In this document: piece by piece, positions 1,579-23,900 of the stretch
How positions within the stretch are numbered: position 1 is the first letter of the stretch
How the letters are laid out: every line of letters starts with the position of its first letter
Made by a program: the position numbers and the translations under genes
Assembly: GCA_014802435.1 (NCBI GenBank)
Contig: JAAVCG010000012.1
Coordinates: 13,656-77,003, forward strand
DNA from: Bacteroides sp.
GTDB taxonomy: Bacteria; Bacteroidota; Bacteroidia; Bacteroidales; Muribaculaceae
Direction: 5' to 3'
DNA length: 63,348 bases
The notes under the pieces: generated by a model
Told to the model about the DNA's origin: nothing
Seen by the model: only the letters and a program-made list of their open reading frames with translations
Database searches by the model: none

Positions 1579-2106
1579 ATGAAAGCTTTCCGACACAACA
1601 CGAACGAGCGCACCAAGTCTAACGTATTGAAACTCCGCATGAAATATGGCGCCGCCGGCTATGGCGTCTACATGATGCTCTTGGAGCGTCTGGCCATGGA
1701 ACCGAAGCTCTGTCATGACATGGATTATGACGCTCTTGCCTATGAATTTCAGGAGTCGGCGGATATGATTCGCCATATCGTTGAGGACTTTGACCTCTTC
1801 ATTATCGACCTTGACGCGGAGACCTTTTCTCATGAAGAGCTCACCGCTCAATTCGCAACCAAGGCCCGACGCGCCCGCGAGGAAAAGGCCCTTGACGAGT
1901 TCATTGAGTGCCGCCTGGAATCTCCGCGCTGGGCTGAAAACATGGCCTATGTTCACAAGACCAGTCCCGAGCGGGTCAAAGCCTTACTGCAATGCACCTT
2001 CCGCGACAAGATTCTAACCTCCTATACCTTCCTGCCATCCTCTTCAGCCCTCGGTCACATTCTCAGCGAGTTAATCAAATCCACCTTCCCTCCCATGGAC
2101 GACTAA
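1579..2106 (+). CDS. DUF4373 (Lin1244/Lin1753-like N-terminal) domain protein
   Basis: The 175-residue protein begins with a segment typical of DUF4373: a short basic stretch, then KYGAAGYGVYMMLLERLA and an acidic loop followed by a predicted winged-helix-like region (residues about 5-85). The rest (90-175) is charged and helical with no recognisable catalytic motif. DUF4373 proteins in Bacteroidota are often found in mobile or phage-derived regions and resemble replication-initiator N-termini, but the function is unknown. It sits between the large palindromic repeat and the Type I R-M operon with its own promoter, so it may be an accessory gene of the island. Membership of the domain family is fairly clear; any role in R-M control is speculation. 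Confidence 0.75.
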   Translation: MKAFRHNTNERTKSNVLKLRMKYGAAGYGVYMMLLERLAMEPKLCHDMDYDALAYEFQESADMIRHIVEDFDLFIIDLDAETFSHEELTAQFATKARRAREEKALDEFIECRLESPRWAENMAYVHKTSPERVKALLQCTFRDKILTSYTFLPSSSALGHILSELIKSTFPPMDD

Positions 2107-2183
2107 AGCCCTCCCCGGTCATTTACTCGCCCACGCTTCTGTACCATCCCCATTCCCGCTCAGACCGGGCGCAGGAGCGGAAA

Positions 2184-2197
2184 CCGCCTCTCCATAG
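2184..2197. repeat. Degenerate half-copy of the palindromic repeat end
   Basis: CCGCCTCTCCATA matches the outer part of the right inverted end seen at 5529-5557 and 6827-6853. Only about 14 bases are conserved, so it could be a decayed remnant or chance. It lies in the 158-base gap before hsdM. Confidence 0.4.
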
Positions 2198-2207
2198 GGC
2201 GGGGGGA

Positions 2208-2239
2208 TTTGGTGGTTTCGGGGATTTTTTGTAAATTTG
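2208..2239 (+). promoter_or_regulatory. Promoter of the hsdM operon
   Basis: TTTG at 2208-2211 and TAAATTTG at 2232-2239 with 20 bases between them match the Bacteroidota promoter; hsdM starts 25 bases downstream. Confidence 0.7.
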
Positions 2240-2264
2240 CGGAAACCATTCCCCCCCACACACG

Positions 2265-4121
2265 ATGAATCAAGCGCAATATAGTAAACTTTTCTCATTC
2301 CTCTGGAACATTGCCAATGATGTCCTGGTCCATGCCTTTGAAAAGGGCAAGTATAAGGACATTATCATGCCGATGCTCGTTTTGCGGCGAATTGACGTCC
2401 TTCTTGAACCCACAAAGCAGAAGGTCCTCGAACACAAGGCCCAACTCGATAGCTTCGGAGTGACCAATCAGGACCAGGCTCTCTGCATGGTCTCCGGATT
2501 TCCTTTCTATAACCACTCCAAGTTTACTCTCAAAACTCTCATCAACGAGACTGACCCTCAGCGCCTGCGCATGAACTTCATTGACTATATCAACGGATAT
2601 AGCGAAGACGTGCTCGAAATCATCGATAAATTCCATCTCCGCCAGCAGATTGACAATCTGACCGAGACCGGCCGACTCGGCTCGCTGATTGCCAAGTTTA
2701 CGGACTCTAACATCAATCTCTCAATCCGTCCCGTCATTGACGATGAAGGAAACGAAATCCTCCCCGCCCTTGATAACCACACTATGGGCACAATCTTCGA
2801 GGAGCTCCTGCGCAAGTTCAATGAAGAAAACAACGTGACCGAGGCCGGTGAACACTTCACTCCCCGCGACTATGTCAAACTCCTGGCCGACCTTGCCGTA
2901 GTTCCCATTGCTGACCGACTCGAAAACCGCCCATATGCCGTCTATGACGGTGCCTGCGGAACCGGCGGAATCCTCTCAATTGCCCAGGAACGCATCTCCG
3001 AGCTGATTCCCGGAGCTACTATCCATCTCTTCGGCCAGGAACTCCAGCCCGAGACGTTTGCAACCTGCAAGGCTGACATGATGATTTCCGGTGTCCTCCC
3101 CCGGACGGGCTATTCCCTCAAGGGCTCCGCACGAAAATATATAGCCTTTGGCTCAACAATCTCTGAAGATGGCCACCCGGGCGAAACCTATGATTTCTGT
3201 ATCTCAAATCCCCCTTTCGGCACCCCATGGAAGGAAGACCTCCGCAAGAAAGGCCTCTCCGACAAGGAAAAACGCAAATTCACCGACTCCCGATTCAACC
3301 TCAATTACGATGGCGACGGCGATTTCTCATTCATCCCTGACATTGGCGACTGCCAGATGCTCTTCCTCGCCAACAACATCAGCCGAATGAAGGACACCCC
3401 CGCCGGTACCCGCATCGTCGAAATCCACAATGGCTCTTCCCTCTTCACCGGTAAAGCCGGAGGAGGCGAAAGCAACCTCCGCCGCTACATTATTGAAAAT
3501 GACCTCCTTGAAGCCATAATTGCACTGCCCGAAAAGATGTTTTATAACACCGGCATCGGCACCTACGTCTGGATTCTAACCAATCGCAAGGAACCCCGCC
3601 GACGCGGAAAGGTCCAGCTCATCAATGCCGCCGATTTCAAATCGCCCCTCCGCAAAAACCTCGGCGAAAAAAACTGCGAACTCTCGGACTCTGACCGCAA
3701 TCGCATCCTCTCCCTGCTCCTCAACTTTGAGGAAACCCCTGAAAGCCGAATCTTTGATAACCGCGAGTTTGGTTATTGGGAAGTCCCCGTGCTACGCCCT
3801 AAGCGCGACAAGGACGGAAACCTTGTCTATAAAAAAGCTAAGAAAAAAGGCGAACAGCCGGAGATTGAATATGCCAAAAACCGCAACGAATCAGAACGCA
3901 TCCCCCTGACATATCCCGGCGGAATCGACGCTTTCTTCGCCAACGAAGTGGCCCCTTACGACCCCGAGGCCCGCTTCGGAGAACCCGTCCTTGGCTACGA
4001 ACTGTCGTTCACCAAGTATTTCTACAAACCCGTGGCTTTGCGACCCCTCTCCGATATCCGCGCCGACATCCGCGCCATCGAGGCTCGCACAGCCGGTATG
4101 TTAGACCAAATCCTCGCCTGA
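2265..4121 (+). CDS. hsdM: Type I restriction-modification DNA methyltransferase subunit HsdM
   Basis: This is the N6-adenine methyltransferase subunit of a Type I R-M complex (HsdM2 HsdS). The N-terminal helical HsdM_N domain covers about residues 8-150. The SAM-binding motif I is DGACGTGG near 228-235 and the catalytic motif IV is NPPF near 315, so the enzyme looks intact at 618 residues, slightly longer than many HsdM because of a C-terminal extension ending in a helical tail. hsdS follows after eight bases. Codon use and GC are like the neighbouring chromosome except in the target-recognition domains of hsdS. The operon has its own promoter at 2208-2239. Confidence 0.95.
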   Translation: MNQAQYSKLFSFLWNIANDVLVHAFEKGKYKDIIMPMLVLRRIDVLLEPTKQKVLEHKAQLDSFGVTNQDQALCMVSGFPFYNHSKFTLKTLINETDPQRLRMNFIDYINGYSEDVLEIIDKFHLRQQIDNLTETGRLGSLIAKFTDSNINLSIRPVIDDEGNEILPALDNHTMGTIFEELLRKFNEENNVTEAGEHFTPRDYVKLLADLAVVPIADRLENRPYAVYDGACGTGGILSIAQERISELIPGATIHLFGQELQPETFATCKADMMISGVLPRTGYSLKGSARKYIAFGSTISEDGHPGETYDFCISNPPFGTPWKEDLRKKGLSDKEKRKFTDSRFNLNYDGDGDFSFIPDIGDCQMLFLANNISRMKDTPAGTRIVEIHNGSSLFTGKAGGGESNLRRYIIENDLLEAIIALPEKMFYNTGIGTYVWILTNRKEPRRRGKVQLINAADFKSPLRKNLGEKNCELSDSDRNRILSLLLNFEETPESRIFDNREFGYWEVPVLRPKRDKDGNLVYKKAKKKGEQPEIEYAKNRNESERIPLTYPGGIDAFFANEVAPYDPEARFGEPVLGYELSFTKYFYKPVALRPLSDIRADIRAIEARTAGMLDQILA

Positions 4122-4129
4122 TCCCGCCC

Positions 4130-4696
4130 ATGGAACGCTACGACTCATACAAACCCAGCGGCATCCCCTGGCTCAAAGAAATCCCCGCCCACTGGCAAAC
4201 AAGGAAGATAAGAAGTCTTTATGCACTTCGTTCTGAGAAAGTCTCTGATAAAGACTACGAGCCTCTTTCGGTATCTAAGCAAGGTGTTACTCCCCAATTA
4301 GAGGACGCTGTGAAAACGGATAATGGCGATAACCGTAAATTAGTCCGCAAAGGAGATTTTGTTGTCAACTCCCGTTCCGATAGAAAAGGTTCTTGCGGCG
4401 TTTCAGAGTTTGATGGCTCCGTTTCTGTCATTAATATAGTGACCTATCCCATTGCCGATTTTGATTCTCGATATTTTCATTTGATGTTTAGGTCAAATGA
4501 TTATATTGAAGAATTTTATCGTTTAGGAAAAGGTATTGTGGCTGACCTGTGGACCACAAAATTTGATGAAATGAGGAACATTAGTGTCCCATTTCCGCCG
4601 CGGGAGGAGCAGGAGAAGATTGTAGAATTTCTTTCAACTAAAACTTTACAAATAGATGCACAACAGAGAGAGAGAGAGAGAGTTACGGCTCCTTGA
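4130..4696 (+). CDS. hsdS: Type I R-M specificity subunit HsdS, N-terminal half (frame broken at a repeat)
   Basis: The 188-residue product holds one complete half of a specificity subunit: a conserved lead-in (PSGIPWLKEIPAHWQ, residues about 9-23), an AT-rich target-recognition domain, and the end of that domain plus start of the central coiled helix (PPREEQEKIVEFLSTK). At an (AG)9 tract (4665-4682) the frame runs into QQRERERVTAP and stops at 4694-4696. The expected helix continuation, LRLLDELKQAEIA, is in the other frame and belongs to the second half at 4656-5402. Adding one AG unit, or removing two, would join both halves into one subunit of about 425 residues. The half-subunit may itself work as a dimer, as known for some truncated HsdS proteins. 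Confidence 0.9.
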   Translation: MERYDSYKPSGIPWLKEIPAHWQTRKIRSLYALRSEKVSDKDYEPLSVSKQGVTPQLEDAVKTDNGDNRKLVRKGDFVVNSRSDRKGSCGVSEFDGSVSVINIVTYPIADFDSRYFHLMFRSNDYIEEFYRLGKGIVADLWTTKFDEMRNISVPFPPREEQEKIVEFLSTKTLQIDAQQRERERVTAP

Positions 4697-5402
4697 CGAA
4701 CTAAAACAAGCCGAAATCGCCAACGTCGTTACCCGTGGCCTCAACCCTAACGCCCCCTTACGCGATACCAACATCCCATGGCTCCCCAAAATCCCCGTCC
4801 ACTGGCAAACACCCAAATTTTATCATCTTTTTGATTTTATAGGAGGTAATGGATTCCCTATACACCTTCAGGGAAAACAATCTGGAGATTATCCTTTTTA
4901 TAAAACGAGTGATATAAATGGTGACGAAATTTATATTGAAAAATCGTCTAATTATTTATCGGAAAATGATTTAGCAAAAAATTCATTTACACTGATTCCA
5001 TCAGGAGCTTTTCTAATGTCCAAGATAGGAGCAGCTCTGCGCAAAAATCATCGGAAAATAACTACATGTCAGTGCTTTATTGATAATAATTTGCAGGCTC
5101 TAGTCAGAAAACCTACAAATCAGGAGAATGAGCTTTACCTTTTCTATTTTCTCAAGTTTTTCGATATGGCATGGGTTGATAATAATGGAACAATACCTTG
5201 TGTTGATAACGGAAAACTTCGTATCTGTATTTTTCCGGTTCCGCCTCTGGAGGAGCAAAAGGCTATTGTCGAGTATATTCAGCAGAAAAATAAGGCCATT
5301 GACGAGATGATTGCCAATCTCCGCGCCGAAATTGACTTCCTAACCGAATACAAACAGCGCCTGATTGCCGACGCCGTCACCGGCCAACTAAAAATCGACT
5401 GA
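4656..5402 (+). CDS. hsdS: Type I R-M specificity subunit HsdS, C-terminal half
   Basis: This frame begins MHNRERERELRLLDELKQA, which is the central conserved helix of HsdS read through the AG tract in the frame that continues, then repeats the lead-in motif (NIPWLPKIPVHWQ, about residues 40-52), a second AT-rich target-recognition domain, and a C-terminal helix PPLEEQKAIVEYI to the end. No promoter or clear ribosome site is visible before the ATG at 4656, so independent translation is uncertain; re-initiation or coupling with the overlapping first half is possible. In the present repeat state the two recognition domains are not joined. The drop in GC within the two recognition domains suggests they were exchanged horizontally. 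Confidence 0.88.
   Translation: MHNRERERELRLLDELKQAEIANVVTRGLNPNAPLRDTNIPWLPKIPVHWQTPKFYHLFDFIGGNGFPIHLQGKQSGDYPFYKTSDINGDEIYIEKSSNYLSENDLAKNSFTLIPSGAFLMSKIGAALRKNHRKITTCQCFIDNNLQALVRKPTNQENELYLFYFLKFFDMAWVDNNGTIPCVDNGKLRICIFPVPPLEEQKAIVEYIQQKNKAIDEMIANLRAEIDFLTEYKQRLIADAVTGQLKID
4665..4682 (+). repeat. (AG)9 simple-sequence tract inside hsdS
   Basis: Eighteen bases of uninterrupted AG dinucleotide at the joint between the two HsdS halves. With nine units the halves are out of frame; ten or seven units would put TTA at 4683 in the frame of the first half. This is the classic layout of a slipped-strand phase switch. Confidence 0.9.
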
Positions 5403-5417
5403 CCATGCCCCGCACCC

Positions 5418-5557
5418 TATGGAAAGGCGGATTCCGATCCGCCGCCCCCGCGCAATGCGATACGCCCATCCCGGTAGGGACGCGACACGTCGCGTCCGCG
5501 GCCAACAAATCATTTCCCCCGGGCCCGTGGCGGCGGATCGGAATCCGCCTCTCCATA
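5418..5557. repeat. Palindromic repeat element, single-unit copy
   Basis: A one-unit version of the element at 1138-1490. Its ends (5418-5446 and 5529-5557) are inverted repeats differing by one base, and the core palindrome GGACGCGACACGTCGCGTCC is at 5478-5497. It starts 15 bases after hsdS. Confidence 0.88.
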
Positions 5558-5578
5558 GGGGCCAGCGCCCGCAAAGAA

Positions 5579-5664
5579 GACCTCGGAGAGGTCGTGTTAT
5601 TGTCAACCCCGGGCGCGAGCCCGGGGACAGGAACCATCCCCCTCACGGGGAGCCTCGGAGAGGC
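5579..5664. repeat. Cluster of GC-rich hairpins after the repeat element
   Basis: This fills the rest of the gap between hsdS and the DUF1016 gene. Three perfect short hairpins are visible: GACCTC-GGA-GAGGTC (5579-5593), CCCCGGGC-GCGA-GCCCGGGG with a GNRA loop (5607-5626), and GCCTC-GGA-GAGGC (5652-5664). The first and third share the CTCGGAGAGG core. They look like a second dispersed hairpin family, though no other copy is seen in this window. Confidence 0.6.
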
Positions 5665-5743
5665 GACGTTTTGTCGGCGACATAGGTGCTCCTTCCGATA
5701 GTTTAAGATAGCAGTTATCAAAGAAAATAAATTGACTCAAGAA

Positions 5744-6799
5744 ATGAATACGAAGATTATACCTGATAAACTTGATGAACATAATTTATTCTCTGAAATT
5801 CGGAGAATATTGCTTGACTCCCGTAACCGCACGTTTGCAGTCGCAAACTCAGAAATGGTATTGGCATATTGGAATGTTGGGAAAATCATTGTGAAGGCTC
5901 AAGGCGGCGCGGAACGTGCCACTTACGGGGATGGGTTGTTAAAGCGTATATCAAAGCAACTTACAAGCGAATTTGGGAAAGGTTTTGATATGTCTAATCT
6001 TCGTAACATGAGATCTTTTTATCTGTGTTTCCCAAATTGTGACGCACTGCGTCACGAATTGAGCTGGACCCATTATAGACTTCTAACGAAAGTTGATAAT
6101 CCAAAGGCTCGTGAATATTATGCCGAGGAAGCTGCGAAAGGCCGCTGGAGCACGCGCCAACTTGAACGCCAGATATATACACAATATTATGAGCGCCTGC
6201 TTGCCACTCATAAAGAAGAAACTGAGGTAAAGGAGTTAATCCAACGTAATTTACCTGAAAAACCTGAAACTTTTGACCCGCTTACTCTTGTTCATGACCC
6301 TTTTGTCCTGGAGTTTTTAGGAGCAAAAGAGGACGTAGAATGGAATGAAAGTGAATTAGAGAAAGCTCTGATTTCTCATCTTGAGGAATTTTTGCTTGAA
6401 CTTGGACGAGGGTTTGCCTTTATCGGACGGCAGAAGAGAATAACTATTGACGGACAACATTTTTATCCCGATTTGGTTTTCTATAATGTATTGACCAAAA
6501 GTTATGTTATCATTGACCTCAAAATGGGTAAGGCAGATTATAGTGATGTCGGTCAGATGCAACTCTATGTCAATTATTACAACATGGATATATGTCAACC
6601 TGACGATAATCCGACAATCGGCATTATTTTATGTGCCAAGAAGAACGATGCGGTTATTAAATATACACTCGGAGACCGGAAGGATATCGGGGTATATCAG
6701 GCGAAGTATGATCTCGTTATGCCATCGGAGGAAGAATTGCGACGTGAGATTGAAATCACACGCGAAAAGTTCAGATTGATTCATGGAAAAGAAGATTAA
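5744..6799 (+). CDS. PDDEXK nuclease domain protein, DUF1016/YhcG family
   Basis: The protein has an N-terminal DUF1016_N helical domain (about residues 15-150; LAYWNVGKIIV, SNLRNMRSFYLCFP, SWTHYRLLTKV) and a C-terminal PDDEXK nuclease-like domain with PDLVFYN followed by YVIIDLKMGK, the D...D-x-K catalytic pattern (about 245-265). YhcG-type proteins are known companions of Type I R-M loci. ATG at 5744 is chosen; an in-frame TTG at 5732 would add four residues. It lies between hsdS and hsdR and is bracketed by palindromic repeats (5418-5557 and 6827-6853), so it may be an inserted accessory gene. No separate strong promoter was seen. Nuclease family assignment is firm, the biological target is unknown. 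Confidence 0.88.
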   Translation: MNTKIIPDKLDEHNLFSEIRRILLDSRNRTFAVANSEMVLAYWNVGKIIVKAQGGAERATYGDGLLKRISKQLTSEFGKGFDMSNLRNMRSFYLCFPNCDALRHELSWTHYRLLTKVDNPKAREYYAEEAAKGRWSTRQLERQIYTQYYERLLATHKEETEVKELIQRNLPEKPETFDPLTLVHDPFVLEFLGAKEDVEWNESELEKALISHLEEFLLELGRGFAFIGRQKRITIDGQHFYPDLVFYNVLTKSYVIIDLKMGKADYSDVGQMQLYVNYYNMDICQPDDNPTIGIILCAKKNDAVIKYTLGDRKDIGVYQAKYDLVMPSEEELRREIEITREKFRLIHGKED

Positions 6800-6826
6800 A
6801 AATGTCACCATCCCCGCCTCAACGGT

Positions 6827-6853
6827 GCGGCGGATCGGAATCCGCCTCTCCAT
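6827..6853. repeat. Single right-end copy of the palindromic repeat
   Basis: These 27 bases match the right inverted end at 5529-5557, including the internal GGCGGAT-CGGA-ATCCGCC hairpin. No matching left end or core palindrome lies next to it. Confidence 0.8.
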
Positions 6854-6887
6854 GGGCTTTTATATAGGATAAGAATTTGACTTAAAG

Positions 6888-9875
6888 ATGGATATTACTG
6901 AAAAAGGACTCGAAGATATCATCGTTGACTATTTGCGCGATGTCAACGGTTACAATCAGGGCAGCAGCTCTGACTACAGTAAGACTTACGCCATGCTCCC
7001 GGAGAGGGTGGAGGCGTTTATCCGGCGCACTCAGCCCGACAAGGCCGAGGAGCTGCGCATTTTCAGCTCCGAGTCAGCCAAGAGTAAGTTCTTTGCCCGG
7101 CTGCGAGACGAAATCACCAAGCGCGGCATAACTGATGTGCTCCGCCGCGGATTCCGCTACATCTCGCTCCACTTTGACCTTTACTATCCACTGCCAAGCG
7201 AGCTGAACCCCACGGCGAAACGCTATTATCAGGACAATGACTTCACCGCCATCCGCCAGCTGCATTACAGCCCGACGGACCCGATGCTGTCAATCGACGT
7301 CGCACTGTTTATCAACGGCCTGCCGGTGCTGACCATGGAGCTGAAAAACCACTTCACCGGGCAGACCATTGAAAATGCCAAAGCGCAATATCAGAATGAC
7401 CGTGACCCTAAGGACTTGCTCTTCAAGCCGAAGCGCTGCGCCGTGCATCTGGCAGTTGATGATACGGACATAGCAATGTGTTCAATGCTTGCCGGTAAGG
7501 GCAGCTGGTTCCTCCCCTTCAATAAGGGCAACAACGGCGGCAAAGGTAACCCCGTGAATCCCCGCGGATTGATGACGGCATACCTATGGGAAGAAGTACT
7601 GACCAAGCAAAGCCTCAGCAATATCCTGGAGGACTTTGCTCAGGTAATCGAGAAAAAAGATGAAGATTCAGGCAAGACCAAGACCAAGGTAATCTGGCCC
7701 CGTTATCATCAGCTTGAAGTGGTTCGCCGACTTCTCAAGGAAACCCGGGATAAGGGAGTCGGCCACCGTTATCTGATTCAGCACTCTGCCGGCTCCGGCA
7801 AGTCGAATTCGATAACATGGCTGGCCTATCAGCTCGTGGGGCTGCTGAAGGATAATAATCCGGTGGTTGACAGCGTGATAGTGGTGACTGACCGAGTGAA
7901 CCTCGACAAGCAGATTCGCGACAATATCCGCGCCTTTCAGAAGCTGGACGACGTTGTTGCCTGGGCCGACAGCTCGGAATCACTTGTTGCGGCTCTGAGA
8001 GGGGGCAAGAAGATTATCATTACCATAGTCCATAAGTTCCCGTTCATTCTCGACGCCATAGGCACTACTCTCAAGAGTAGCCGCTTCGCAATCATCATTG
8101 ACGAGGCCCATAGCTCACAAAACGGCTCAATGTCGGCCAAGATGAATATGAGCGTCAGCGGAAACGCTATGGATGAGGAAGATGAAGACCTGGAAGAGAA
8201 GATTGCAAAGATTGTGGCCGGCCGCAAAATGGCCTCCAATGCCAACTATTATGCCTTCACGGCCACTCCGAAGAATAAAACCCTTGAGATGTTTGGCACT
8301 CCTCAGCCGGCTGACCCGGAAGGCAATGTCCTCCATATTCCTTTCCATGTCTATTCCATGAAGCAGGCCATTGAGGAGGGATTCATCATGGACGTGTTGC
8401 AAAATTATACTCCTTATCAGAGCTTCTACAAGGTTGTCCGCTCGATTGAGGAAGACCCGGAATTTGACAAGAAACAGGCATCAGCCAAGATTCGCGCCTG
8501 GGTCGAAGCTCAGCCGGAAACCATCGATGCCAAGGCTCGCATCATCGTTGAACACTTCCATCAGAACGTCGTCAACAAAGGCAAAGTTGGCGGTCAGGCC
8601 CGCGCTATGGTGGTCACTTCGAGCATACTGCGTGCCATTGACTTTTACTATTCCATCTCTGAGAAATTGCGCCAACGTAACAGTCCGTTCAAGGCCGTAG
8701 TTGCTTTCTCCGGCGAGAAAGAATATCAGGGTCAGCGAGTTACAGAGGCCACCATCAACGGCTTCCCGTCGTCAGAAATCGAGGCGCGCATGGGGCAGGA
8801 CCCTTATCGCATCCTCATCGTGGCGGATAAGTTCCAGACGGGCTATGATCAGCCGCTGTTGCACACAATGTATGTCGACAAAGTGCTCTCTGACGTCAAA
8901 GCCGTGCAGACCCTCTCGCGCCTCAACCGTTGTCACCCGAAGAAGCGTGACACCTTCGTTCTTGACTTTGCCGGCAACGCCGAACTCGTTCAGGAGGCTT
9001 TTCAGAAATACTATAAGGCGACGAACCTGAGCCGCGAAACCGACCCCAATAAGCTGAATGACCTGCTCAATAAGATTGAGAGCTACAATCTCTTCACAAT
9101 GAAAGAAGTAGAGGAGATTAACCGCATATTCCTCTCTGAAGAAGACCGCTCGCGCCTCGACCCGATTCTCGACCGGGCCGTAGAGCGCTTCAAGCAGCTT
9201 GACGATGACGGCAAGATTGACTCAAAGAGCGCAATCAAGGGCTTTAACCGCCTTTATCCGTTTATTGCCGCCGTTTCGCCTTACAAGACCACGGATTGGG
9301 AGAAAATGTACACTTATCTCCATCTGCTGGCGGCCAAACTCCCGCGGATTCCGCGCGAGGACTGGACCGAGGGGCTGATTGACGCCATAGACTTTGACCA
9401 GTATCGGGCAATCAAGCAGGGCGAGGCACAGTTTCAGATGGAGAATGAGGATACGGAGATTCAGCCGATACCCGTCGGCAGCGGCAGCGCGCCTTCAGAG
9501 CCTGACTTTGACCGACTGTCAAATATCCTGGAGGAATTCAACACTCATTTCGGCGGAATCGAATGGGAACATCCGGAGGAAGCCATTGACCAGATTCGCC
9601 TCCTTCCGGAGCGTTTGGCCGCCAATGAGCAATTCTCAAATGCCGTCCAACATAGCGACGAGCAGAGCGCTGAAATTCAGTCAAATATTGTGCTCTATCA
9701 GCTTGTTTGCGCCCTGCTTGGCGAAAAGACGGAGTTTGCACGCAATTATCTCGATAATGAAGACTTCCGGGCATTCGTCAATCAGCGGGTGTTTAACAAG
9801 GCTTATTCGGCGGCTCAGCGGGGCTATACTGAGACTGATGATTACTCCTCATCGCGCTTTGCGGCAGAGCCTTAG
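6888..9875 (+). CDS. hsdR: Type I restriction endonuclease subunit HsdR
   Basis: This 995-residue motor-nuclease subunit has an N-terminal PDDEXK domain (SIDVALFINGLPVLTMELKN, about 134-153), then a superfamily 2 helicase core with Walker A HSAGSGKS (near 297-304), Walker B DEAH (near 403) and motif III FTATP, the second RecA-like domain (DKFQTGYDQP), and a C-terminal helical part that contacts HsdM. Length and motifs are those of an active enzyme. It completes the R-M system with hsdM and hsdS but is separated from hsdS by the DUF1016 gene and repeats. The stop overlaps by four bases the stop of the convergent DUF5009 gene. Cleavage by the complex depends on the HsdS state upstream. Confidence 0.95.
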   Translation: MDITEKGLEDIIVDYLRDVNGYNQGSSSDYSKTYAMLPERVEAFIRRTQPDKAEELRIFSSESAKSKFFARLRDEITKRGITDVLRRGFRYISLHFDLYYPLPSELNPTAKRYYQDNDFTAIRQLHYSPTDPMLSIDVALFINGLPVLTMELKNHFTGQTIENAKAQYQNDRDPKDLLFKPKRCAVHLAVDDTDIAMCSMLAGKGSWFLPFNKGNNGGKGNPVNPRGLMTAYLWEEVLTKQSLSNILEDFAQVIEKKDEDSGKTKTKVIWPRYHQLEVVRRLLKETRDKGVGHRYLIQHSAGSGKSNSITWLAYQLVGLLKDNNPVVDSVIVVTDRVNLDKQIRDNIRAFQKLDDVVAWADSSESLVAALRGGKKIIITIVHKFPFILDAIGTTLKSSRFAIIIDEAHSSQNGSMSAKMNMSVSGNAMDEEDEDLEEKIAKIVAGRKMASNANYYAFTATPKNKTLEMFGTPQPADPEGNVLHIPFHVYSMKQAIEEGFIMDVLQNYTPYQSFYKVVRSIEEDPEFDKKQASAKIRAWVEAQPETIDAKARIIVEHFHQNVVNKGKVGGQARAMVVTSSILRAIDFYYSISEKLRQRNSPFKAVVAFSGEKEYQGQRVTEATINGFPSSEIEARMGQDPYRILIVADKFQTGYDQPLLHTMYVDKVLSDVKAVQTLSRLNRCHPKKRDTFVLDFAGNAELVQEAFQKYYKATNLSRETDPNKLNDLLNKIESYNLFTMKEVEEINRIFLSEEDRSRLDPILDRAVERFKQLDDDGKIDSKSAIKGFNRLYPFIAAVSPYKTTDWEKMYTYLHLLAAKLPRIPREDWTEGLIDAIDFDQYRAIKQGEAQFQMENEDTEIQPIPVGSGSAPSEPDFDRLSNILEEFNTHFGGIEWEHPEEAIDQIRLLPERLAANEQFSNAVQHSDEQSAEIQSNIVLYQLVCALLGEKTEFARNYLDNEDFRAFVNQRVFNKAYSAAQRGYTETDDYSSSRFAAEP

Positions 9876-10966
9876 AGTTTGAGGTGGGTGTCAGTGCGGT
9901 GCATGGCCAGGAGCAGCAGGAAGAGGATTGCGAAGTTGCCGAAGGTTAGCCAGACGGAGTACCATTCCTGGCCGATGAGGTGCTGAAGGCCGAAGCTGAC
10001 GGAGTTGACAATGCTGCGGAAGTTGATCACTTCGCCGACGACGTAGGCCGTGATGGCGTTCGTGCCATAGATTTTCAGCCAGTTTAGGCCTCGGGAGTGG
10101 CCTTTGGCGTCAATCCACCAGTAGAAGAGCGCCATCAGGATGAAGCAGATGCCGCCGCTGAGCAGAGTCATTGAGGCGGTCCAGAGGCGTTTGATGATGG
10201 GTTGCTCAAGGCTCCAGAGCATTCCGGCAAGAATCAGTCCGAGGCCGACGAGCACCATCCGCAGCGCACACCGCGAGCGGAGTCCGGGCGCGGTGGTTGA
10301 GCGCATCATTTTCCCGGCAAATGAGCCGAGCATGACTGTCACCGTGAAGGTCAGCGAGCTCCAGACCCAGGTGTAGCTGCGGTCGCCGCGAAAATCGCCT
10401 AAAATGAGCTCGTCAACCCTGTAGGCAAAGCTTCCCTCCGGAGTGTAATCTCCCAGTAAAGCCATTGGAATCCAGTAGATTATCAGCAGCAGAGCTGTGG
10501 CAATCACCTGTCCGCGAACGGAAAGGTGGATAACCAGCATGGAGCCGAGGAGATAGCCGACGGCGATGGCCTGCAGAGTGTTAGTGTAAATGCGGATGGC
10601 CGTCGGGTCGAGCGCCAGAAGATTGCCCTGAACAATCATTCCGAAGAGGAATAGCAGCAGGAAGCGGCGCAGGATTCGCCCGTAGATTCCTTTGCGGTCA
10701 AGGGCCGAGCCCGACTGAAAACGCGCAAATGCAAAGGGCATCGAAGTGCCCACCATGAAGAGAAACAGGGGCATGACCATGTCCCAGAGGCGCAGACCCT
10801 CCCAGCGCTCATGGTCAAAATGCCAGAGCAGCCGGTGATACCATTCGGCATCCGTCGCGCCGCCAATGGAAATCATTACCGGCTGGAGCCAGACAAGGAG
10901 GAAGAGGTCAAGGCCGCGCAGAATGTCGAGCGACGCAAGGCGTTTTGGTGTGACTGTTGCTGCCAT
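9872..10966 (-). CDS. DUF5009 / heparan-alpha-glucosaminide N-acetyltransferase-like membrane protein
   Basis: A 364-residue multi-pass membrane protein beginning with RLASLDILRGLDLF, the conserved start of the COG4299/DUF5009 (NagX/HGSNAT-like) family, followed by WHFDHERWEGLRLWDMVMPL and several hydrophobic helices to the C-terminus. Family members are thought to transfer acyl groups to sugars across the membrane. Its start codon overlaps the holA stop by one base (TGATG), so it is translationally coupled to holA. The 3' end converges on hsdR. Family assignment is good; the substrate in this organism is not known from the sequence. Confidence 0.85.
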   Translation of the reverse strand: MAATVTPKRLASLDILRGLDLFLLVWLQPVMISIGGATDAEWYHRLLWHFDHERWEGLRLWDMVMPLFLFMVGTSMPFAFARFQSGSALDRKGIYGRILRRFLLLFLFGMIVQGNLLALDPTAIRIYTNTLQAIAVGYLLGSMLVIHLSVRGQVIATALLLIIYWIPMALLGDYTPEGSFAYRVDELILGDFRGDRSYTWVWSSLTFTVTVMLGSFAGKMMRSTTAPGLRSRCALRMVLVGLGLILAGMLWSLEQPIIKRLWTASMTLLSGGICFILMALFYWWIDAKGHSRGLNWLKIYGTNAITAYVVGEVINFRSIVNSVSFGLQHLIGQEWYSVWLTFGNFAILFLLLLAMHRTDTHLKL

Positions 10967-23654: not shown

Positions 23655-23900
23655 AAAAGTATGAATTGAGACTGAAATGAGATTAAAGAGGCTGAAATGA
23701 GACTAAAATGAGACTGATTGACACTAAAATGAGACTAAAAAGGCTAAAATGAGACAAAAATGAGACTGAATGACACTAAAAATGACACTAAAAATGAAGA
23801 AATGACACTGAAAATGCTGAAAAAATTTGGAAAACCCGAAAAAAAACCGTAACTTTGTGCCGCAAAACAACAACTAAATGACACTAAAAATGACAAAAGA
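23655..23900 (+). repeat. Array of degenerate ATGAGAC / ATGACACTAAA repeats before the AlbA_2 gene
   Basis: The 305-base gap after uvrB is dominated by a short motif in one orientation: about eight ATGAGAC or ATGAGATT-type copies (23676-23768), then four to five ATGACACTAAA or ATGACACTGAAA-type copies (23769-23816), with a last one overlapping the start codon of the next gene (23878-23893). The spacing is irregular (about 10 to 20 bases). The promoter at 23826-23857 sits between the array and the gene. Confidence 0.8.
23826..23857 (+). promoter_or_regulatory. Promoter of the AlbA_2-domain regulator gene
   Basis: TTTG at 23826-23829 and TAACTTTG at 23850-23857, 20 bases apart; the start codon is 20 bases downstream. 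Confidence 0.7.

Follow-up and report, generated by a model that had tools for sequence, protein, structure and literature searches.

An AG dinucleotide run as a proposed slippage switch in a Type I hsdS gene of Bacteroidales

The hsdS gene of a Type I R-M locus in a gut Bacteroidales genome contains a perfect run of nine AG units, and this run is very probably a slippage switch that changes the gene product between one joined specificity (S) protein and two halves. The locus lies in a stretch of 63,348 nucleotides, which we call the window. The slippage switch is well supported by the comparison between species: among 11 run-bearing hsdS genes, including that of the window and compared between species only, four are in frame and seven are split, which agrees with the NgoAV-type frame switch that the first-pass annotation had proposed. 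That the split state is also active is a separate claim, and one that falls just short of an even call.

The locus is assigned to Type I by its genes, as hsdM, hsdS and hsdR are all matched by both Pfam and PADLOC; its genes and the hsdS features described here lie on the forward strand. The methyltransferase subunit HsdM (618 aa) is encoded at 2265..4121 (Pfam N6_Mtase, E 1.1e-41, and HsdM_N, E 2.8e-19; PADLOC MTase_I, E 4.2e-202) and the restriction subunit HsdR (995 aa) at 6888..9875 (Pfam HSDR_N, SWI2_SNF2 and T1R_D3-like; PADLOC REase_I). Between them, hsdS is present as two open reading frames. Half 1 (188 aa, 4130..4696; Pfam Methylase_S, E 1.1e-5) holds the N-terminal recognition domain TRD1 and the D1 helix up to its middle. 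The second half of D1 is encoded by half 2 (248 aa, 4656..5402; Pfam Methylase_S, E 1.3e-15), together with TRD2 and an entire D2 helix. The stop codon of half 1 is a TGA at 4694-4696, just past the run, the ATG of half 2 is at 4656, 9 bases 5' of the run, and the two frames overlap by 41 bases around it. On one and the same PADLOC profile, PDLC03072, half 1 (aa 1-183) covers model positions 3-194 of 448 and half 2 (aa 5-247) positions 192-439, and the two together thus give an S subunit with two TRDs over positions 3-439, meaning that the run interrupts the gene and that no other part is missing. The earlier statement that the halves are out of frame at exactly the AG tract is therefore borne out by two frames that abut on a single specificity-subunit profile. 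Relatives with solved structures include the S subunits 3okg, 5ybb, 7vru and 1yf2, a homology that rests on phmmer; half 2 was aligned to residues 189-422 of 1yf2.

Within the genus of the window, a close HsdM was found in one of 11 genomes, the window's own, and two others have distant matches only; thus, we infer that the R-M system was probably acquired horizontally. In plasmid records, all matches to half 2 were below 60% identity. The genome has a second hsdS, a 397-aa open frame on contig C1, where the sole other Methylase_S matches of the genome are found. Between hsdS and hsdR, at 5732..6799, the window encodes a PDDEXK protein of the YhcG/DUF1016 family (355 aa; Pfam YhcG_C, E 7.7e-52, and DUF1016_N, E 1.5e-44; PADLOC PDC-S02, E 2.9e-130), which is probably not part of the switch. 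At this place, directly 3' of hsdS, the related locus L034 has a 601-codon stop-to-stop open frame, and the window has the YhcG/DUF1016 gene, a PDC-S02 candidate, before hsdR. The same gene is flanked by a dispersed near-palindromic element, GGCGGATTCCGATCCGCC, of which the window contains eight copies at no more than two mismatches (1146-1163, 1465-1482, 5426-5443, 5532-5549, 6829-6846 and three more) and its shuffles none; the element forms a 32-nt inverted repeat at 5415-5446/5529-5560. Two tandem arrays were also observed in the window: a 98-bp repeat present three times with 94% matches at 1158-1455, upstream of the R-M locus, and an imperfect array of 2.9 copies of a unit of about 52 bp, with TGAGACT/TGACACT-like motifs, at 23665-23816.

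The run itself occupies 4665..4682, exactly where it had been placed before, both by the sequence and by Tandem Repeats Finder (AG x 9.0, 100% match). It is the single occurrence of at least seven AG units in a genome of 2,484,949 bases. Its 12-base core has four overlapping matches in the window, all inside the run, whereas 100 shuffles of the window that preserved dinucleotides gave 0.01 on average. The run encodes (Arg-Glu)n inside D1. When the 25 longest open frames of the window that do not overlap are counted, AGA accounts for 48 of 736 Arg codons and GAG for 362 of 933 Glu codons. Moreover, a near relative with an HsdM 90% identical (L087) encodes SQQREREREIQLLDEL at the run site through CGA/CGC and GAG/GAA codons, without a run. 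Because AGA serves for few of the Arg codons in these frames and L087 uses other codons and has no repeat, the run is a trait of the DNA rather than a need of the protein, and it is not expected from ordinary codon use. The D1 linker around the run, counted from the tail of TRD1 (..QID) to ELKQAEIA, has 40 nt in the window (4658..4697, located by the linker script with coordinates worked out). Given the flanks of this gene, the arithmetic of the reading frame requires a unit count of 1 mod 3 (7, 10, 13 and so on) for the joined frame, and seven or ten units give a joined product of about 422-424 residues, in good agreement with the proposal that nine units split the gene and that seven or ten restore one subunit of about 425 residues.

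The relatives of the window's HsdM provide the comparison on which the switch is based. The sample is centred on this HsdM and consists of the best 80 of 91 confirmed places (79 loci, with flanks of up to 6 kb); each allele is one consensus per species, mostly from MAG assemblies. Among these best 80 of 91 places, an AG run of 7-12 units was found in the following hsdS of 10 relatives, that of L069 being printed as GA units. The first-pass annotation had suggested counting units in relatives, with a fixed nine-unit tract as the outcome speaking against a switch; instead, 7, 8, 9, 10 and 12 units were found. In nine of the 10 run-bearing relatives, the hsdS run is the sole run of at least seven AG units in the genome, and the genome of L036 has one other.

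Linker length was scored from the end of TRD1 (I-D/E/N) to ELKQxEIAxxVTRGL by a regular expression that allowed 24-66 nt. The linker was located in 49 of the 79 loci (78 relatives and the window), with L108, whose contig ends inside hsdM, left out. The 30 loci without a match were not counted; by eye, the same spacing is seen in L057, L081, L085, L086, L089 and L109 among them, and no perfect dinucleotide run of at least six units occurs in the loci of these 30. In the 49 scored genes, from the best 80 of 91 places, the D1 linker is 42 nt in all 38 run-free genes. The 11 run-bearing linkers vary: 42 nt in L040, L069 and L072, 36 nt in L076, which is in frame and two residues shorter, 40 nt in the window, L034, L035, L071, L075 and L088, and 46 nt in L036. 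Eight of the 11 thus differ from 42 nt, always by a multiple of 2 nt, and length variation is confined to the run-bearing genes and proceeds in 2-nt steps (Fisher p 3.7e-7 for length variation against run presence; 4.1e-5 with the window clade counted once). Linker runs of three to six AG units were found in none of the 49 genes, all having either at most two units (run-free) or at least seven, and only run-bearing genes are out of frame among the 49. The D2 helix of the same gene, the run-free counterpart of D1, serves as an internal control: its linker has 14 residues in all 39 loci where it was found (10 of the 49 gave no match), including all 11 run-bearing genes.

Both states occur among the relatives on the HsdM trees, and the run recurs in separate clades. 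On these quick trees, in which several forks are open, the presence of the run needs five changes over the 38 rows with a scored linker, and the number is the same without the long rows L069 and L088; it becomes six when rows lacking a scored linker are taken as run-free, and the stricter count of five is used here. The split versus in-frame state needs four changes among the 11 run-bearing genes, and the sister pairs L071/L072 and L075/L076 are each made up of one split and one in-frame gene (SH-aLRT 97-99). The clade of the window itself (window, L034, L035 and L036) has 9, 9, 9 and 12 units, and all four genes are split. Within this clade, TRD1 is common to L034-L036 and unlike that of the window, and TRD2 of L034 differs from that of L035/L036, so that one and the same centre with the repeat is combined with different recognition domains.

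Wider searches by sequence pattern yielded no new run-bearing hsdS, all matches of the whole-genome scans being known alleles or not hsdS. With the known alleles counted in, the pattern matched 3 of 397 genomes (1 for the reversed-pattern control), 7 of 393 (2), 3 of 399 (4) and 5 of 149 (1), and in further scans 1 of 7 (0), 1 of 61 (0) and 4 of 111 (0); the pattern alone is hardly commoner than its reversed control. The pattern of the 397- and 393-genome scans also misses some true alleles, such as that of L088, and the evidence on the run rests on the HsdM-anchored set and not on these scans. Several matches were rejected: L116-L121, L123/L125, L126 and L128-L130 are not hsdS, which was judged from short translations by eye rather than with a profile, and L113 and L114 repeat L035 and L034. 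Stricter hsdS patterns, run twice against viral contigs, had no matches. A different repeat was observed in a Kiritimatiellae-labelled relative, L064, in which a heptamer run, (TGCGGAG)4, lies just after the D1 region of hsdS (L064:8475-8502) in an open frame of 466 codons. It is the sole site with at least three units in a genome of 3.9 Mb; the TRDs of this gene are nearly identical to each other and, by eye, resemble TRD1 of the window. It is possible that this heptamer run is a second kind of hsdS frame switch.

We propose the following mechanism for the AG run. Replication slippage would add or remove AG units within the codons of the D1 helix, presumably fast enough for switching within a population. 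At a count of 1 mod 3, a single, complete S subunit carrying both TRDs would be produced. Nine units would split the gene, half 1 stopping at 4694-4696 and half 2 being able to start at its own ATG. Half 2 may be translated in this state, and the split may alter specificity rather than simply turn the system off. If half 2 is made, then, by analogy with EcoDXXI, a half-2 homodimer might act on a palindromic site, or half 1 and half 2 together might act with the joined specificity; without half 2, the split state would be OFF.

Structural models indicate what each half would retain. The model of an in-frame relative, L072 (mean pLDDT 84.0, 24 sequences), has the helices D1 at 155-200 and D2 at 364-407, and the run-coded residues, at about 178-182 by numbers taken from the coordinates, are placed in the middle of D1. 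For half 2 of the window, the AlphaFold model (mean pLDDT 56.3, 7 sequences) is poor outside the helices and reliable for these only; its fairly confident helices are 2-27, the rest of D1, and 198-242, which is D2 (5247..5381, block pLDDT 75-85). Half 2 thus contains TRD2, the complete D2 and 26 residues of D1, and half 1 retains just the first half of D1, without the second. Because half 1 loses the second half of D1, and half 2 has the whole of D2 besides a part of D1, half 2 looks likelier to be the active half of the split gene. In the window, D1 resembles D2 in 9 of 18 residues before the linker and in 8 of 15 after it; in excerpts of PMC3874165, such likeness is connected with the capacity of Type IC halves for homodimer formation.

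The phase of the split alleles also bears on their function. The split alleles, seven of seven, share one phase, a single unit below the joined frame (mod 3), and the other broken phase was found in none of the 11 run-bearing alleles. In all seven, both frames are open and half 2 is intact, ATG-led and 238-248 aa long. For the observed split phase, an ATG for half 2 lies within 13 nt 5' of the run in 10 of the 11 run-bearing alleles, with only a TTG in L040; for the unobserved broken phase, an ATG is available in 2 of the 11. If the phases were equal and the alleles independent, the probability of finding none of the 11 in the other broken phase would be 0.012, or 0.039 with the window clade counted once, and that of all seven split alleles being alike 0.008, or 0.0625 for four lineages. 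This skew is weak, because about four lineages account for the seven split alleles, and few lineages together with a contraction bias (loss of one unit) could explain it. Judged from these sequences, the pattern is what would be expected if the split state were used and the startless state were not, and it hints that the split state may make two half-subunits and not nothing. We considered whether the ATG had evolved for the split state, an idea that is weakened by its presence in run-free homologues with the D-A-Y-V residues: the codons for the conserved D-A and Y-V residues largely supply the ATG, and run-free homologues of Prevotella type have it too. In one case, L087, which is run-free, the ATG is absent.

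The strongest alternative is compatible with slippage and concerns only what the split state does. It holds that the split gene gives no working S subunit, half 1 being truncated in the coiled coil and half 2 untranslated, so that restriction and methylation are lost until the frame returns. We regard this plain OFF switch as a serious candidate that stands somewhat below an even chance. It agrees with the shortness of half 1, which lacks about half of D1, with the start of half 2 inside half 1, and with an ATG that the protein sequence in part brings with it; the second part of NgoAV, taken as an analogy, is inactive. In addition, the active half-S of S. aureus, according to passages of PMC6158711, was cut after the whole central conserved region, and half 1 here ends within it, which disfavours an active split state. 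However, half 2 is intact in every split allele, the phase mostly lacking an ATG for half 2 is precisely the one that was not observed, D1 and D2 are alike in this gene, and, in excerpts of PMC3874165, the N- and C-terminal halves of EcoDXXI are active as homodimers and together restore the wild type. The first-pass annotation had suggested that the split state may use a half-subunit dimer with a palindromic site rather than be OFF. The intact half 2, its ATG 5' of the run in seven of seven split alleles and the EcoDXXI precedent make an active split state plausible; its emphasis needs to be shifted, as it is half 2, and not the first part as in NgoAV, that looks likelier to be active.

Three further readings give the run a lesser role, and we consider each of them improbable. 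If hsdS were a fixed pseudogene with a single old frameshift in an inconsequential repeat, one would understand why one state is known in the genome of the window and why its clade is in the split phase in four of four genes, but not why unit counts vary within that clade, why neither frame has closed in any of the seven split alleles, why sister species show opposite states or why the run recurs in separate clades; this reading is therefore doubtful. It is equally hard to see the run as a tuner of gap length, altering the residues of D1 and hence the spacing of the half-sites, as in EcoR124I. The run does lie in D1, where excerpts of PMC3874165 place the TAEL repeats of EcoR124I, and the linker of L076, an in-frame allele, is two residues short of the usual length; nevertheless, three of the four in-frame run-bearing alleles have exactly 42 nt, like all 38 run-free genes, the in-frame step would be two residues, half of the four-residue TAEL unit, and seven of the eight length variants break the frame. 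Recombination between hsdS genes or repeated half-gene segments, with specificity changed and the AG run incidental, is no better favoured. A 40-nt direct repeat, 85% identical, starts each TRD (4162-4201 and 4772-4811), and its copies could swap or drop a TRD; moreover, TRDs vary between close relatives around a kept centre, and there is the second hsdS elsewhere in the genome. Yet no inverting hsdS locus was found: window 2000-10000 contains no inverted repeat involving hsdS (seed 12, length 20), and the other Methylase_S gene is on another contig. The linker changes are also all 2-nt steps, and both processes can coexist. Finally, an assembly or sequencing artefact is very improbable, since, even if most assemblies are MAGs and repeats are error-prone in principle, runs of 14-24 bases are shorter than short reads, the assemblies of different species agree in phase, the out-of-frame genes among the 49 are all run-bearing, and L075 is a cultured strain, Phocaeicola massiliensis DSM 17679.

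The proposed slippage switch has close precedents, cited here from excerpts of the papers concerned. In NgoAV of Neisseria gonorrhoeae FA1090, a poly-G run is responsible, the truncated HsdS1 recognizing GCAN8TGC and the fused form GCAN7STCA (PMC9577141), with LEAT repeats as a second layer (PMC6789123); the first part is active and the second is reported to be inactive (PMC9577141; PMC3874165). The likeness lies in a slippage-prone run that splits hsdS into two ORFs (hsdS1/hsdS2 in NgoAV), with joined and split forms among strains in NgoAV and among related species here, and the outcome in NgoAV is a change of specificity and not only ON/OFF (PMC9577141, PMC6789123). Unlike NgoAV, the run here is an AG dinucleotide and not poly-G, the host is a gut Bacteroidales, the system is known from its sequence, and half 2 retains its own ATG along with TRD2 and D2 in complete form, in contrast to the second part of NgoAV, which is reported to be inactive. 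An AG repeat inside the hsdS coding sequence is likewise known from mycoplasma, in which AG[n] is said to mediate phase variation, credited to Atack et al. 2020 (FASEB J) in an excerpt of PMC9465063. Thus, from NgoAV and mycoplasma, this kind of switch is already known; what is added here is a Bacteroidales set with length controls and a phase pattern. In the parts consulted of PMC6211672 (H. parasuis), PMC10333322 (B. fragilis group), PMC5608340 (P. intermedia), PMC12707154 and PMC13076061, an AG run in hsdS is not described; PMC5608340 reports, in such a part, hsdS fragments in P. intermedia that arise by frameshift and inversion in culture.

Precedents for active halves come from other systems. 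As excerpted from PMC3874165, S halves with one TRD from EcoDXXI and EcoR124I act as homodimers on palindromic sites, and the EcoDXXI halves recombine to the wild type; a half HsdS of S. aureus dimerised and was an active methyltransferase (PMC6158711, in part). These halves of EcoDXXI, EcoR124I and S. aureus are transposon, deletion or engineered forms, whereas a natural slippage switch is proposed here. EcoR124I/II also has a short repeat in D1 between the TRDs, TAEL, whose copy number alters the enzyme (excerpt of PMC3874165); that unit is 12 bp, in frame and acts on spacing, and the unit in the window is 2 bp, lies in D1 and acts mostly on frame. According to a passage of PMC7394358, almost 10% of Type I systems have such repeats, with phase-variable expression demonstrated in two species only.

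A fuller reading, which we offer tentatively and hold to be possible rather than probable, is that of a two-position switch between the joined S subunit and two separately translated halves. The third phase would be selected against, because half 2 is then mostly without a start codon, and the split locus could give up to three specificities at once (half 1 with half 2, half 2 with itself and half 1 with itself), so that the split would broaden specificity and not turn it off. Such a switch would recur across gut Bacteroidales with varied TRDs around a constant repeat. For the slippage switch as such, the comparison extends the same logic to several hsdS lineages of Bacteroidales, with natural controls in the run-free homologues of fixed length and in the run-free D2 of the same gene. 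Should the split state prove active, wild genes would regularly adopt the half-subunit form of the enzyme, for which most known examples are truncations made in the laboratory.
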